From IMG/VR virus record IMGVR_UViG_3300021185_003351, positions 108,974 to 172,973 of that record: a stretch of 64,000 nt of DNA; one strand, written 5' to 3'. Below the pieces are notes generated by a model that searched no databases, had not been told where the DNA came from, and saw nothing but the letters and a program-made list of their open reading frames with translations. The stretch comes from a virus. A program made the position numbers and the translations under genes. Below, piece after piece: positions 45,334-62,624 of this stretch (position 1 is the first letter of the stretch; each line of letters opens with the position of its first letter).

Positions 45334-45362
45334 TTGGATAATATAATTTTATTTCTTATTAT
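45334..45362 (+). promoter_or_regulatory. Promoter upstream of the MoxR-type ATPase gene
   Basis: TTGGAT at 45334-45339, 17 bases, TATTAT at 45357-45362, A-rich leader to the ATG at 45381. Confidence 0.75.
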
Positions 45363-58267: not shown

Positions 58268-58676
58268 AGAGGGAGAAGAGGGAGAGGGCCGACGCCTTTA
58301 TTTTTAGAATATATTAATACCCTTTATCCACCCAATCAGGTGTCTATTACTTTTAGAATATATACAAACCACTTTGTAATTCAAAGTATTTTCCCTATAC
58401 ACTGATAGTATTTTTAGAATGGGATGTGTGTATTGTATATTTGAAGAATGGTAAAGCTCCCTTCCTGGCGTTCCAGTTTATTTTTAGTGCGAGTATGCTC
58501 TTTATTTTTAGATCCTATAGGGAGAAGGCCCGGGTTTATTTTTAGTGCAGTATATGTGCTTTTACTTTTAGATTATATCGAGTTACTTTTAGATTATATT
58601 TAGACACATATTTACTTTTAGTTCAGATCACTAGCTATACGGAGTAATACTTTTAGATTTATTTTTAGAAAAACGG
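58268..58676. repeat. Non-coding region with about 11 copies of TA(C/T)TTTTAG
   Basis: No credible gene lies between 58268 and 58723. The stretch holds TATTTTTAG or TACTTTTAG, all in the same orientation, beginning near 58300, 58348, 58409, 58480, 58503, 58538, 58563, 58585, 58613, 58648 and 58661, plus a variant near 58598. Most are followed by A or T, several by ATATA. It starts with a purine-rich block (58265-58288) and includes one copy of the 17-base palindrome also found at 59074. It may be a regulatory array or an origin-like element. Confidence 0.75.
58371..58387. promoter_or_regulatory. 17-base palindromic site, copy 1
   Basis: ACTTTGTAATTCAAAGT: the arms ACTTTG and CAAAGT are exact inverted repeats around a 5-base centre. 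An identical copy lies at 59074-59090. Symmetry and duplication suggest a dimeric regulator site. Confidence 0.65.
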
Positions 58677-58705
58677 TTGGATTTTTGGTTGTTTCTTCTT
58701 ATTAT
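58677..58705 (+). promoter_or_regulatory. Promoter upstream of 58724
   Basis: TTGGAT at 58677-58682, 17 bases, TATTAT at 58700-58705. It begins directly after the last TATTTTTAG unit. Confidence 0.75.
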
Positions 58706-58723
58706 ATAGAAAAATAAAAAGAT

Positions 58724-58978
58724 ATGACAAAAGCTAGCACATTTTACAAAAGGAATTATACCAACGGCTATCAGGCAAAAGTAGAATATTGGTCAACGGA
58801 GTTAGCTATATATACTAAGTATGAAGCTCAGGACAAGATGTTAATGGCCAAAAAGAAGTTAGATTACTTTGTAGATAAGCAAATAGAATACCTGAACAAG
58901 AAACAGCATGATCTCCTAGCAGAAAGAATAGGAGTAGTCAGCCAAGACGGATTTGAAATAAAGACAATCCAGAAATAA
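58724..58978 (+). CDS. Small basic helical protein of unknown function
   Basis: 84 residues, TKASTFYKRNYTNGYQAKVEYW, then a long helix (KYEAQDKMLMAKKKLDYFVDKQIEYLNKKQHDLLAERIG). Uses GC-richer codons than most of the window. It lies alone between a promoter and a terminator, so it is a single-gene unit. Confidence 0.65.
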   Translation: MTKASTFYKRNYTNGYQAKVEYWSTELAIYTKYEAQDKMLMAKKKLDYFVDKQIEYLNKKQHDLLAERIGVVSQDGFEIKTIQK

Positions 58979-59024: not shown

Positions 59025-59068
59025 AAAGTGGGAGCAGACTTCATATCCCTGCTCCCTTTCTTACTTTC
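59025..59068 (+). terminator. Rho-independent-like terminator
   Basis: GGGAGCAG (59030-59037) pairs with CTGCTCCC (59049-59056) around an 11-base loop, with flanking AAA/TTT pairing and a T-rich tail (TTTCTTACTTT). It closes the unit of the gene at 58724. Confidence 0.75.
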
Positions 59069-59073
59069 AGGAT

Positions 59074-59090
59074 ACTTTGTAATTCAAAGT
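59074..59090. promoter_or_regulatory. 17-base palindromic site, copy 2
   Basis: Identical to 58371-58387 and located about 30 bases upstream of the -35-like box of the next promoter, a good place for an operator or activator site. Confidence 0.65.
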
Positions 59091-59119: not shown

Positions 59120-59148
59120 TTGACACGTGTACTTTTTTTCCTTATATT
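59120..59148 (+). promoter_or_regulatory. Early promoter, TTGACA type
   Basis: TTGACA at 59120-59125, 17 bases, TATATT at 59143-59148 within CCTTATATTTAAGTA. An AACTTTTCTGGTAAAA element lies just upstream, shared with the promoter at 61181. Confidence 0.8.
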
Positions 59149-59178
59149 TAAGTAATTAATAATTAAAAAATAGAGAAT

Positions 59179-59430
59179 ATGACAAGAGCGAATTTATTAT
59201 CAAAAATAGAAGAGACATATAATAAGATATATGCATTCACAGACAGAATGGATGACGAGGCATTAAATGTATTAGATGAGTATGTGAGTCAATATAAATT
59301 AGATGAGGAGTATAGTATATTAATAGAGGCACTGTGCGATGATTACGATCCCACTAATTTATCCAAAGACACTTTATCATATTTATTGGATGCACATAAA
59401 GAAGCATTATCTGATTTGAGGTGTGAATAA
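59179..59430 (+). CDS. Small acidic helical protein of unknown function
   Basis: 83 residues, four charged helices (TRANLLSKIEETYNKIYAF ... LSYLLDAHKEALSDL), strongly acidic. Preceded by its own early promoter and an AGAGAA leader. Candidate early host-takeover protein. No family. Confidence 0.65.
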   Translation: MTRANLLSKIEETYNKIYAFTDRMDDEALNVLDEYVSQYKLDEEYSILIEALCDDYDPTNLSKDTLSYLLDAHKEALSDLRCE

Positions 59431-59457
59431 CTTTTTTAAAAATAAATGCAAAAAAAT

Positions 59458-59486
59458 TAGGATCCGAACAAAAAAATGCTTATATT
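59458..59486 (+). promoter_or_regulatory. Early promoter, TAGGAT type
   Basis: TAGGAT at 59458-59463 in TTAGGATCC, 17 bases, TATATT at 59481-59486, followed by the same TAAGTAATTAATAATT leader as at 59143. Confidence 0.75.
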
Positions 59487-59516
59487 TAAGTAATTAATAA
59501 TTAAAAAATAGAGAAT

Positions 59517-59687
59517 ATGAATAATGATATAAAAAATGAGTACACAAATTGCCTAAAAAATATTGAAGACAAATTACAATTTGCTTTCAGTGATTTAGAA
59601 GAAAATGGCAATTACATCCAAAATGAAATTTACAGAACCATTAGAACCCAAATAGATACATTATATAATAATATAATTAATTCTTAA
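59517..59687 (+). CDS. Small early helical protein
   Basis: 56 residues, NNDIKNEYTNCLKNIEDKLQ then FSDLEENGNYIQNEIYRTI; two or three helices, no motif. Single gene behind its own promoter. Confidence 0.65.
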   Translation: MNNDIKNEYTNCLKNIEDKLQFAFSDLEENGNYIQNEIYRTIRTQIDTLYNNIINS

Positions 59688-59718
59688 TAACTTTTTTAAA
59701 AAAAATATAGGGAAAAGG

Positions 59719-59747
59719 TTGACTCGCATTGATTTTTTCCTTATATT
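59719..59747 (+). promoter_or_regulatory. Early promoter, TTGACT type
   Basis: TTGACT at 59719-59724, 17 bases, TATATT at 59742-59747, then TAAGTAATT. Confidence 0.75.
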
Positions 59748-59770
59748 TAAGTAATTAAAATTTAAAGGAT

Positions 59771-59887
59771 ATGGATATATTAAAAGAAGTAGTAGAAGTA
59801 ACGTATACGGAGATAGTCTCAGTATGTTTATTATGTGTAACGTTAGGCATAATAGTAGCAATGGTAATTGAAGAATTTAAAAAATAG
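59771..59887 (+). CDS. Small early membrane peptide
   Basis: 38 residues: an acidic N-terminus and one membrane helix (IVSVCLLCVTLGIIVAMVI) with two Cys. AAAGGAT precedes the ATG. Could modify the host membrane early in infection. Confidence 0.6.
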   Translation: MDILKEVVEVTYTEIVSVCLLCVTLGIIVAMVIEEFKK

Positions 59888-59890
59888 GAT

Positions 59891-60019
59891 ATGAAAATGA
59901 ATGGAGGTTTACAAGCACATTGGCAAGACGAATGGATATTGTTAAAAAGAAAATGGAATATGATGCATCCCGATGAAAGAGGTAAATGGGAAGATTATTA
60001 TGATACAAATAGAAAATAA
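59891..60019 (+). CDS. Small early Trp-rich peptide
   Basis: 42 residues, KMNGGLQAHWQDEWILLKRKW then HPDERGKWEDYYDTN. Five Trp in 42 residues is unusual. TAGGAT just before the ATG serves as its ribosome-binding region. No family. Confidence 0.6.
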   Translation: MKMNGGLQAHWQDEWILLKRKWNMMHPDERGKWEDYYDTNRK

Positions 60020-60022
60020 GAT

Positions 60023-60145
60023 ATGAATAAGATAGATAAAATAGTTAAAGAAATGATCGAGCATGCAAATAATGCCGGCACAGAAGTCGAAGAATCAAAT
60101 CCTTTAAAGAAGCTACCAGGTTTTTTGGGTACAGAAAAAGGATAA
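60023..60145 (+). CDS. Small early protein of unknown function
   Basis: 40 residues: NKIDKIVKEMIEHANNAGTE then a Pro/Gly end (LKKLPGFLGTEKG). Third gene from the 59719 promoter. Confidence 0.6.
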   Translation: MNKIDKIVKEMIEHANNAGTEVEESNPLKKLPGFLGTEKG

Positions 60146-60173
60146 AAAAGTTTTAAAAAAGTTGGCAAAAGAT

Positions 60174-60202
60174 TAGGATCCTATCCTTTTTTGCCTTATA
60201 TT
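60174..60202 (+). promoter_or_regulatory. Early promoter, TAGGAT type, ahead of the sigma-factor operon
   Basis: TAGGAT at 60174-60179 in TTAGGATCC, 17 bases, TATATT at 60197-60202, then TAAGTATAATTTAAAA. Confidence 0.8.
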
Positions 60203-60226
60203 TAAGTATAATTTAAAATAAAGGAT

Positions 60227-60415
60227 ATGAGTAAAAAAATGAGTAAAGGTTATGATGCGCAGGATAGAGTCCTCGCAGGATTTAGGAGAGCCGCAAAGTC
60301 TTCTAATATTAATAGTGCCGTAGCAAAAGCTATGAGAAACAAGAAAAAAGTTAAACCGCAGAATGAGGAAGTAGTTTTTAGTCCTTTGGCATTAATTCAG
60401 TTATTAAATGGGTAA
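60227..60415 (+). CDS. Small basic protein upstream of the sigma factor
   Basis: 62 residues, basic (KKMSKGYDAQDRVLAGFRRAAKS), ending FSPLALIQLLNG. Its end overlaps the sigma-factor gene by eight bases, so it may be a partner or leader that sets sigma levels. Function unknown. Confidence 0.65.
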   Translation: MSKKMSKGYDAQDRVLAGFRRAAKSSNINSAVAKAMRNKKKVKPQNEEVVFSPLALIQLLNG

Positions 60416-61151
60416 GATATACGTAAGCACAGGCGCCGTAGTGACAGATACACCAAGCGTCAAAAAGTATATGGGAGAAATTAAGAAGGCTCCTTTATTA
60501 GATAGAGACGAAGAAACTAAATTAGCAACCGCCGCATTGGCTGGAGATAGGAAAGCTGTTAACAAGTTAGTTGAATCTAATTTGAGGTTTGCTGTACAGG
60601 TAGCTAAGCAATATCAAGGAATGGGTATTGAGTTAGAAGACTTAATTGGTTTTGCTAATATAGGATTATTTGAAGCAGCAAAGAGATTCGATCCTAGTAG
60701 AGGATTTAAATTTATATCCTTCGCTGTATGGTATGTGAGAGCTGAATTGCAGAAGTGTTTAAATGATTTAAGCAGAGTGGTAAGGATTCCATCTCACAAA
60801 ACAATGACAGAAGGAAAAGAGTTCTCAACTCTTAGTACTAGCAAAAAGGTTGGTGACGATGAAGAAAGCGAAACATATGCAGACAGATACTTATCCGGAG
60901 AGCAGTCTAAGCCTAAGCACGAGGTAACGGATTTGAAAGAAATGCTTAGTGTAGCATTGAATAGCCTAAAGCCTAAGCAAAGAGATGCCGTTAAAATGTT
61001 TTATGGTATTGACAGAGACTATGCTATGCACATGGAGCATATAGCTGAGGAGTTAAATGTTACAGGCGAAAGAGCGAGACAATTAATTAGACAAGGTGAA
61101 AAAGCTTTGCAAAGCGTTAAAGGTATAGATAAGCTATTACAATACCTTTAA
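60408..61151 (+). CDS. Sigma-70 family RNA polymerase sigma factor
   Basis: 247 residues of the primary-sigma type. SVKKYMGEIKKAPLLDRDEETKLA (about 17-40) is region 1.2. NLRFAVQVAKQYQGMGIELEDLIGFANIGLFEAAKRFDPSRGFKFISFAVWYVRAELQ (about 63-120) covers region 2 with the polymerase-binding and -10 recognition helices. RVVRIPSHK (about 126-134) opens region 3. ALNSLKPKQRDAVKMFYG, then ERARQLIRQGEKAL (about 182-235) is region 4 with the -35 recognition helix. It keeps the layout of Bacteroidota SigA, only shorter. It could direct host polymerase to phage promoters of the TTGGAT/TATTAT class. Confidence 0.92.
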   Translation: MGKIYVSTGAVVTDTPSVKKYMGEIKKAPLLDRDEETKLATAALAGDRKAVNKLVESNLRFAVQVAKQYQGMGIELEDLIGFANIGLFEAAKRFDPSRGFKFISFAVWYVRAELQKCLNDLSRVVRIPSHKTMTEGKEFSTLSTSKKVGDDEESETYADRYLSGEQSKPKHEVTDLKEMLSVALNSLKPKQRDAVKMFYGIDRDYAMHMEHIAEELNVTGERARQLIRQGEKALQSVKGIDKLLQYL

Positions 61152-61180
61152 AAATAAATTAAACTTTTCTGGTAAAAGAT

Positions 61181-61209
61181 TAGGATCCTATCAGAATTTA
61201 CCTTATATT
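61181..61209 (+). promoter_or_regulatory. Early promoter, TAGGAT type
   Basis: TAGGAT at 61181-61186 in TTAGGATCC, 17 bases, TATATT at 61204-61209; AACTTTTCTGGTAAAA lies upstream as at 59101. Confidence 0.75.
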
Positions 61210-61234
61210 TAAGTATAATTTAAAAAATAGAGAT

Positions 61235-61390
61235 ATGTATAGTTTATGTGCTAAGTATTATGATAAAGAGTTCGCAACGGTAGACGAACTGATGAATGAC
61301 GTAATGTTATCCGGAATGGATCCGAATTACGAAATTACCCTGAACGGCGGAGGTACCGGTGAAATGGCCTGTGATTTGTTAGTATTCTAA
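61235..61390 (+). CDS. Small early protein of unknown function
   Basis: 51 residues, YSLCAKYYDKEFATVDELMN then MDPNYEITLNGGGTGEMACDLL. Single gene behind a promoter and followed by the next promoter. GC-richer codons than average here. No family. Confidence 0.65.
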   Translation: MYSLCAKYYDKEFATVDELMNDVMLSGMDPNYEITLNGGGTGEMACDLLVF

Positions 61391-61425
61391 TAGGAAAAAA
61401 AGTTTAAACTTTTCTTGAAAAAAGG

Positions 61426-61454
61426 TTGACACGCACGGATATTTTCCTTATATT
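61426..61454 (+). promoter_or_regulatory. Early promoter, TTGACA type
   Basis: TTGACA at 61426-61431, 17 bases, TATATT at 61449-61454, then TAAGTATAATTTAAAA; a Lys-codon-free A/T-rich element (AAACTTTTCTTGAAAA) lies upstream. Confidence 0.8.
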
Positions 61455-61478
61455 TAAGTATAATTTAAAATTAGAGAT

Positions 61479-62414
61479 ATGAATAACATTTATAAGCCGG
61501 CCAGGATAGATGGCAAATTAGTAGCAAAGAATGTAGCTACCGGGAGTATAGCTCCAGAGAACTTAATAAGATATATACAAATTAGAAACGCTGAAAAGAA
61601 TAGTGAGTTGCTAGTTGTTAATGGTAATGGTAGAGTAAGCAGAATGCATAATACCAATTACAAAAGCAATGAGCCGCAGAAGCTAAGCTTTATGTCAGTA
61701 GTGGAAAAGAGAGATCCAAAGGTTATGTTTAATAACCTAGAAAGACTTACCAAGATGGTAGGTAGAGGTATTCAGCCTTCCTTAGTTATTACAGGCGGTG
61801 CTGGATTGGGTAAGACTTATTTGGTTAAGAAGACATTAACTGATATGGGATTAGAAGAAGCTAAGCAATTCGTTCACTTTAAAGGTAGAGCTACCGCAGC
61901 TGGATTGTTTGTAACGCTTTATGAGAATTCAGATAAGATAATTGTGTTGGATGATTGTGATAGTGTATTCAAAGACATGGATGCTGTTAATATGTTGAAA
62001 GCTGCATTGGATAGCTATGACACTAGAAAGCTTAGCTATATCAGTACTAAGCCATTGAAGGATGCCTATGGTGATCCAGTTCCTAGACACTTTGAGTTTA
62101 CCGGTAAGATAATCTTTATCTCTAATATATCTCAAAGCAAATTAGATGAGGCAATCAAATCCAGATCCTTTGTAAGTGATATTAGTATGAATACCAAGCA
62201 AATGTTCCAAAGAATAGATGACTTGAAAAATCAGATTGAAACTAAGATTCCCAATGAGGTTAAGGATAAGGCTTTGGAAATAATGAAAAGCTTGGAGAAG
62301 AAGTATGATGGAGTGGAGATTAATTTGAGATCCTTTATCAAAGCTTGTAGAATATGCGCAATGGGATTTGACAATGCCGAAGGAATGGTAGCAGAGCAGA
62401 TTATTAAGGCTTAA
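61479..62414 (+). CDS. AAA-type P-loop ATPase, early
   Basis: 311 residues. After about 70 residues of basic N-terminus, ITGGAGLGKTYL (about 107-118) is Walker A, KIIVLDDCDSVF (about 153-164) Walker B and GKIIFISNIS (about 208-217) sensor 1. SRSFVSDISM (about 226-235) offers the arginine. The C-terminal 60 residues are helical. Early expression and the DNA-processing style of the core suggest a helicase-loader or remodelling ATPase, but no specific family is evident. It uses a GC-richer codon set than most of the window. Confidence 0.85.
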   Translation: MNNIYKPARIDGKLVAKNVATGSIAPENLIRYIQIRNAEKNSELLVVNGNGRVSRMHNTNYKSNEPQKLSFMSVVEKRDPKVMFNNLERLTKMVGRGIQPSLVITGGAGLGKTYLVKKTLTDMGLEEAKQFVHFKGRATAAGLFVTLYENSDKIIVLDDCDSVFKDMDAVNMLKAALDSYDTRKLSYISTKPLKDAYGDPVPRHFEFTGKIIFISNISQSKLDEAIKSRSFVSDISMNTKQMFQRIDDLKNQIETKIPNEVKDKALEIMKSLEKKYDGVEINLRSFIKACRICAMGFDNAEGMVAEQIIKA

Positions 62415-62444
62415 AACTTTATTAAAAATAAAAGGCAAATGATT

Positions 62445-62473
62445 AGGACTTACGGATTATTTGCCTTATATTT
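62445..62473 (+). promoter_or_regulatory. Early promoter, TAGGAC type
   Basis: TAGGAC at 62445-62450, 17 bases, TATATT at 62468-62473 in CCTTATATTTATATAAA. The leader departs from TAAGTA and approaches the late-type motif. Confidence 0.65.
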
Positions 62474-62495
62474 ATATAAATAAAAAATAAGAGAT

Positions 62496-62624
62496 ATGAG
62501 CAATGAAAAACAATTAGTAGGCCAAGAGTTATTAGACTTTTTAATGAGTCGATTTAATATGACTGAAGACGAAGCTCTTCAAAACTTAGCAGAGAATATT
62601 GGTAACGTTAACTTAAATAAATAA
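62496..62624 (+). CDS. Small early helical protein
   Basis: 42 residues, SNEKQLVGQELLDFLMSRFN then MTEDEALQNLAENIGN. Two helices; no family. First of two genes behind the promoter. Confidence 0.6.
   Translation: MSNEKQLVGQELLDFLMSRFNMTEDEALQNLAENIGNVNLNK

Follow-up and report, generated by a model that had tools for sequence, protein, structure and literature searches.

An array of direct repeats lying just upstream of a single promoter was found in a 64,000-nucleotide stretch of viral DNA (hereafter the window), which is the last 64 kb of the 173-kb record IMGVR_UViG_3300021185_003351. The DNA polymerase of the record belongs to the T4-type family. The array consists of 11 exact copies of TA(C/T)TTTTAG at 58299-58668 on the + strand, and it is directly followed by a promoter at 58677-58708 (+), TTGGAT-N17-TTATTATATA, which is preceded by GG at 58675. 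The same kind of array was present in related phages, and the finding was confirmed as real and conserved. Its best-supported mechanism is iteron-type binding by a presumed phage protein beside the promoter. We tentatively propose, at somewhat less than an even chance, that the array and the promoter form the phage's transcription-coupled replication origin, in which both the protein binding and the role in replication are presumed. The array extends known kinds of element, namely iterons and upstream arrays, and does not found a new kind.

A sequence-only reading of this DNA had described about 11 same-strand units in roughly 370 bases, with irregular spacing and recurring flanks, in a gene-free stretch, and each of these points was borne out. 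The units start at 58299, 58348, 58409, 58479, 58503, 58537, 58563, 58584, 58613, 58648 and 58660, and none was found on the - strand of the same 370 bases. The distances from unit to unit (49, 61, 70, 24, 34, 26, 21, 29, 35 and 12 bases) are irregular, ranging from 12 to 70. The flanks AGATTATAT, AGAATATA and AGTGC are each present twice, and a 17-mer box, CTAGCTATACGGAGTAA, lies in the promoter-proximal part of the array at 58631-58647 (+). At the genome's own rate 0.012 units would be expected here. Under a first-order Markov model built on the stretch itself, 5000 trials yielded a mean of 0.14 units and at most 3. The rest of the record contains 5 copies on the + strand and 9 on the - strand, all scattered. 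Blast matches at 45353 and 53659 were considered as further copies of the array and rejected, as they correspond to the downstream promoter and not to the units. A coding function was ruled out, since the stretch has no credible gene; the 51-amino-acid open reading frame (ORF) that overlaps the array at 58448-58603 looks like a chance ORF.

The sequence-only reading had asked for a comparison with related phages, and this comparison showed that the region is conserved. Loci with the same arrangement were gathered by searching with two proteins encoded downstream of the array, an 84-amino-acid protein and an RpoD-like phage sigma factor. The sigma factor gene (60408-61151, +; Pfam Sigma70_r1_2, r2 and r4; phrog_351) served as a landmark of synteny, and the array was found 1.7-4.6 kb upstream of it, on the same strand, in all 14 records holding both, so that the junction is kept even in distant relatives. 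One array region per record was observed in 9 of 9 records of 100-173 kb that were searched whole, the few other matches being isolated. When 2.9 million viral contigs were scanned for three units in a row, 79 stretches were obtained, about 37 of which, from metagenomic phages, carry the same composite element of unit array, CTAGCTATAC(G/A)G-type box and promoter; the remainder were simple repeats or chance. A separate scan with the CTAGCTATACGGAGTAA 17-mer gave 10 contigs. Nine of these had already turned up as array contigs by way of TATTTTTAG, and the tenth was a chance match within a coding repeat. An apparent tendency of contigs to end in the array was dismissed as an artefact of how the stored stretches are cut.

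The array-bearing phages share 70-95% identity with the window in their DNA polymerases, and array layouts differ even among near relatives. In two loci (L077, 7199-7601; L131, 1320-1180, -) the array region, or the DNA immediately behind it, has undergone recent tandem duplication, pointing to fast turnover. Isolated phages gave no DNA match, and none of those searched carries the array; Mel-JY01, the closest isolate by DNA polymerase (44.6%), has no array. In cellular genomes the triple-unit pattern occurred in at least 119 stretches, and none among the matches listed had the companion motifs. A literature search found no phage paper with the unit among those listed, and no matching description of the array.

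The promoter directly after the array, overlooked in the sequence-only reading, proved to be part of the conserved element. For 27 of 32 arrays, a strict pattern searched within 160 bp downstream found a TTGG...TATTATA-type promoter on the same strand, at a distance of 15-105 bp from the last unit; the 32 include near-identical loci, and the count is therefore not one of independent cases. On the opposite strand, upstream of the array, the same search found a promoter for none of the 32, and 4% of random stretches matched. Inspection of the five misses by eye showed a variant promoter after four of them; the fifth had been cut by the cluster rule.

Behind the promoter lies a short cargo that is not homologous between groups: the 84-amino-acid gene in the window and two phages close to it, tRNA-Met in L017, and other tiny ORFs or RNA hairpins elsewhere. 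In the window the cargo gene lies at 58724-58978 (+) and belongs to no known family; only in those two near relatives does a homologue follow the array. Its transcript probably ends at a hairpin, GGGAGCAG..CTGCTCCC, with a T-rich stretch (59030-59068, +), which is also present in L005 and L006 and which was read directly, as the consensus terminator scan did not flag it. The array and the promoter stay constant while the cargo changes, suggesting that transcribing this stretch is more important than what is transcribed.

We then considered what the units themselves could be. The sequence-only reading had offered many weak promoters giving short RNAs, and a related explanation at the RNA level is that the units are tandem terminators insulating the early block downstream from read-through. 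The T-runs are strand-specific, several units in the window come after a short hairpin, and the first unit overlaps a terminator-like site, all of which would suit this explanation. A TTG about 20 nt upstream (-33 distance) was, however, found in just 6 of 328 family units, no more than at other distances, and in none of the 11 in the window, so the proposal of weak promoters was abandoned. As to intrinsic terminators, hairpins before the T-runs were not above shuffles in relatives, with no excess before the units of L005 or before 263 units of other relatives. The array was not supported as a structured RNA either, because its whole fold was no more stable than shuffles (z = 1.04), and Rfam gave no match for it. 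We regard an RNA-level function as very improbable. Units without a -33 element and without an excess of terminator hairpins indicate that the array is something attached upstream of one promoter.

Another proposal of the sequence-only reading was a decoy that titrates a regulator, such as a host or phage sigma factor. In its favour, the phage's early -7 box, TATATTTA, has the form TAnnTTTA, which the unit TATTTTTA fits, and a sigma gene is always close by. No positive evidence for a decoy emerged, and 322 of the 328 units lack TTG at the -33 distance. Free sigma factor binds promoter DNA poorly without polymerase, and a sink needs neither a fixed position nor an adjoining promoter. A decoy function is thus highly unlikely.

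The spacing of the units in relatives points instead to a protein-bound array. The core TA(T/C)TTTTAG is constant, while the flanks differ between genomes and the following bases have a weak family consensus, (A/T)NCAATAT. Over 11 mutually dissimilar representative arrays, the spacing has peaks near 12, 22 and 34 bp, spanning 11-12, 21-24 and 30-36 bp, and falls mostly at 21-24 bp. It is quantised at about 11 bp, with a phasing statistic greater than that of every one of 1000 jittered controls. Repeats in a single orientation, stepped spacing and one adjoining promoter suggest that a phage protein binds cooperatively here. In iteron plasmid origins (R6K, P1, RK2 and F), likewise, direct repeats of about two helical turns stand in the same orientation in AT-rich surroundings, and the direct-repeat feature is present here, a single sequence being repeated with the same orientation throughout. 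Most known iterons measure 17-22 bp, and shifting them by half a helical turn abolishes cooperativity between plasmid Rep proteins (PMC4980987). The systems differ in that plasmid origins have 2-7 iterons (PMC4980987) against mostly 6-17 units in the present arrays, and in that no Rep_3 initiator was found in the present phage.

A single region of direct repeats in steps of about 11 bp with a promoter alongside could also be another DNA-level site, for partition or packaging. Some plasmid partition sites are indeed direct repeats with an adjoining promoter. A search for the ParB_N domain, whose control worked, found none, and a lytic T4-like phage needs no partition, just as headful packaging needs no such site. 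This alternative is accordingly given very little weight.

A close likeness is also seen to the origins of T4. At T4 oriE, a cluster of direct repeats stands beside a promoter and small genes, and these repeats are kept in syntenic regions of relatives (PMC3016281). The present array differs in its 9-bp core, in its lattice of about 11 bp and in standing beside a middle-type promoter; moreover, T4 has several origins, and the present phages have one array region per record. T4 oriF (ori(uvsY)) and oriG (ori(34)) show the other half of the design, with transcript-primed initiation from middle promoters (PMC3016281). A candidate counterpart in the window is the promoter at 58677 with the probable terminator hairpin at 59030, the middle timing and the transcript being presumed; a short transcript from such a promoter could prime replication. 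No repeat array is described at oriF and oriG in the review (PMC3016281). Both depend on MotA, and no MotA-family protein was found in the present phage by a search whose control was likewise silent. The repeat cluster of oriE and the transcript-primed initiation of oriF and oriG supply both halves of the design, and for this reason a transcription-coupled origin was ranked first.

In such an origin, a single DNA-binding protein encoded by the phage would recognise the repeats as iteron-type sites and assemble on them as a nucleoprotein complex beside the promoter at 58677. The bound complex would open or activate the promoter region, and a short transcript, terminated a few hundred bases on, would prime or open the DNA for the first round of replication. 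Recombination-dependent replication would then take over, as in T4-type phages. The iteron-like origin put forward by the sequence-only reading has thus become the leading candidate explanation. It is supported by the single array region, its conserved position, the modal spacing of 21-24 bp in relatives, and the adjoining promoter with changing cargo.

Several observations weigh against an origin. The spacing in the window is irregular, with no evident helical phasing, and the lattice in relatives is centred on 11-11.3 bp, not 10.5, and could have arisen by duplication of 12- and 22-bp modules. GC skew showed no sign change in the record. G is less abundant just behind the promoter than around that stretch (skew 0.08 against 0.17), which lends no support to an R-loop. 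A Rep_3-type initiator was not found in the record by a search whose control worked, and the iterons of T4 itself have no established role (PMC3016281). Two further features suit direct control of transcription equally well: units overlap the -33 region of the promoter in some genomes (TTGGTTTTTAG), and L017 and L108 have array, promoter, gene, array and promoter in series.

These two features lead to the main alternative, an upstream activation region without a direct role in replication, where a phage activator bound to the repeats, and to the unit near -30, would make transcription of the short cargo very strong or would set its timing. The fixed orientation of the array and its close placement to the promoter agree with it, as do the units reaching into the -33 region, the separate promoter of each array in L017 and in L108, and the many cargos that are structured RNAs with compensatory base pairs. 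On the other hand, the same genome's other middle-type promoters have no units, 7-17 sites across about 180-880 bp are a large number for a single promoter, the cargo lacks conservation, and no MotA-family activator was seen, though with the silent control mentioned above. We consider such a region a serious possibility, and lean towards ranking the transcription-coupled origin above it, with purely transcriptional activation close behind.

The array also has a fixed place in the layout of the genome. Two promoter-like classes were distinguished in the record, which we labelled early and middle from their sequence and position only. The middle type (TTGGAT, N17, TTATTATATA) sits before genes of the replication region, and that at 58677 is its last case; others, without an array, include those at 45334, 46967, 53667 and 55985. 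The early type, in which a spacer separates TTGAC or TTAGGATC from TATATTTA, occurs in seven cases outside genes, all at 59.1-62.4 kb, and two further matches inside genes are due to chance. These early-type promoters belong to an early block at 59120-62500 (+), where they precede tiny genes, the sigma gene and an AAA ATPase gene. The two clean classes (58677 and earlier sites versus 59120-62443) divide the phage genome into blocks. Since middle-type promoters lie upstream of the array and early-type promoters downstream, the array marks the junction of both blocks, in agreement with its earlier placement between an operon of tiny genes and the early block. The Bacteroidota-like form of the promoters suggests Bacteroidota as the host group. 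Another hairpin, ACTTTGTAATTCAAAGTA, was observed in the array region at 58371-58388 and again before the first early promoter at 59069-59087; L005 has the same pair in changed form.

Some of the cargos are RNA hairpins. In one type the outer stem is 8 bp long, with 7 of its 8 pairs changed on both sides and pairing kept, and the internal loop, AACCACA/AACACC, is conserved. A model of it gave 18 matches in 64 sources, most of them model-building sequences or near copies, all downstream of array-linked promoters and none in the record of the window. Members include L108 977-1042 (-), L110 1225-1289, L131 1397-1458 (-) and L122 5020-5072, in addition to 14 more loci, and those tested had no match in Rfam. 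A second recurrent GC-rich hairpin, GGGTCCGGGATC...GACACTCCCGGCGGATC, is found beside the first (L110, 1320-1365; L108, about 875-830, -) and also downstream of the array in L082, L094 and L127, and is probably another RNA element. Matches to the tRNA model, 112-130 nt in length, were also noticed at L017 5545-5674 and L081 1657-1768 (-); they may be tRNA-like genes that contain an intron or another insertion.

Taken further, the element might be an undescribed single-region control element of an uncultivated T4-like phage clade, with an array bound by a phage initiator and a promoter often driving an unrecorded structured RNA, serving as a transcription-coupled origin of new design; we consider this full proposal rather unlikely as a whole. 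For T4-like phages outside well-studied hosts, the start of replication has for the most part not been mapped, and even at T4 oriE the repeats have yet to be given a defined role. The relatives of the array lead to a structured RNA family without a match in Rfam, and the array-promoter element marks a phage control region for annotation. Being single, conserved and easily recognised across many uncultivated phages, it offers a concrete site for testing.
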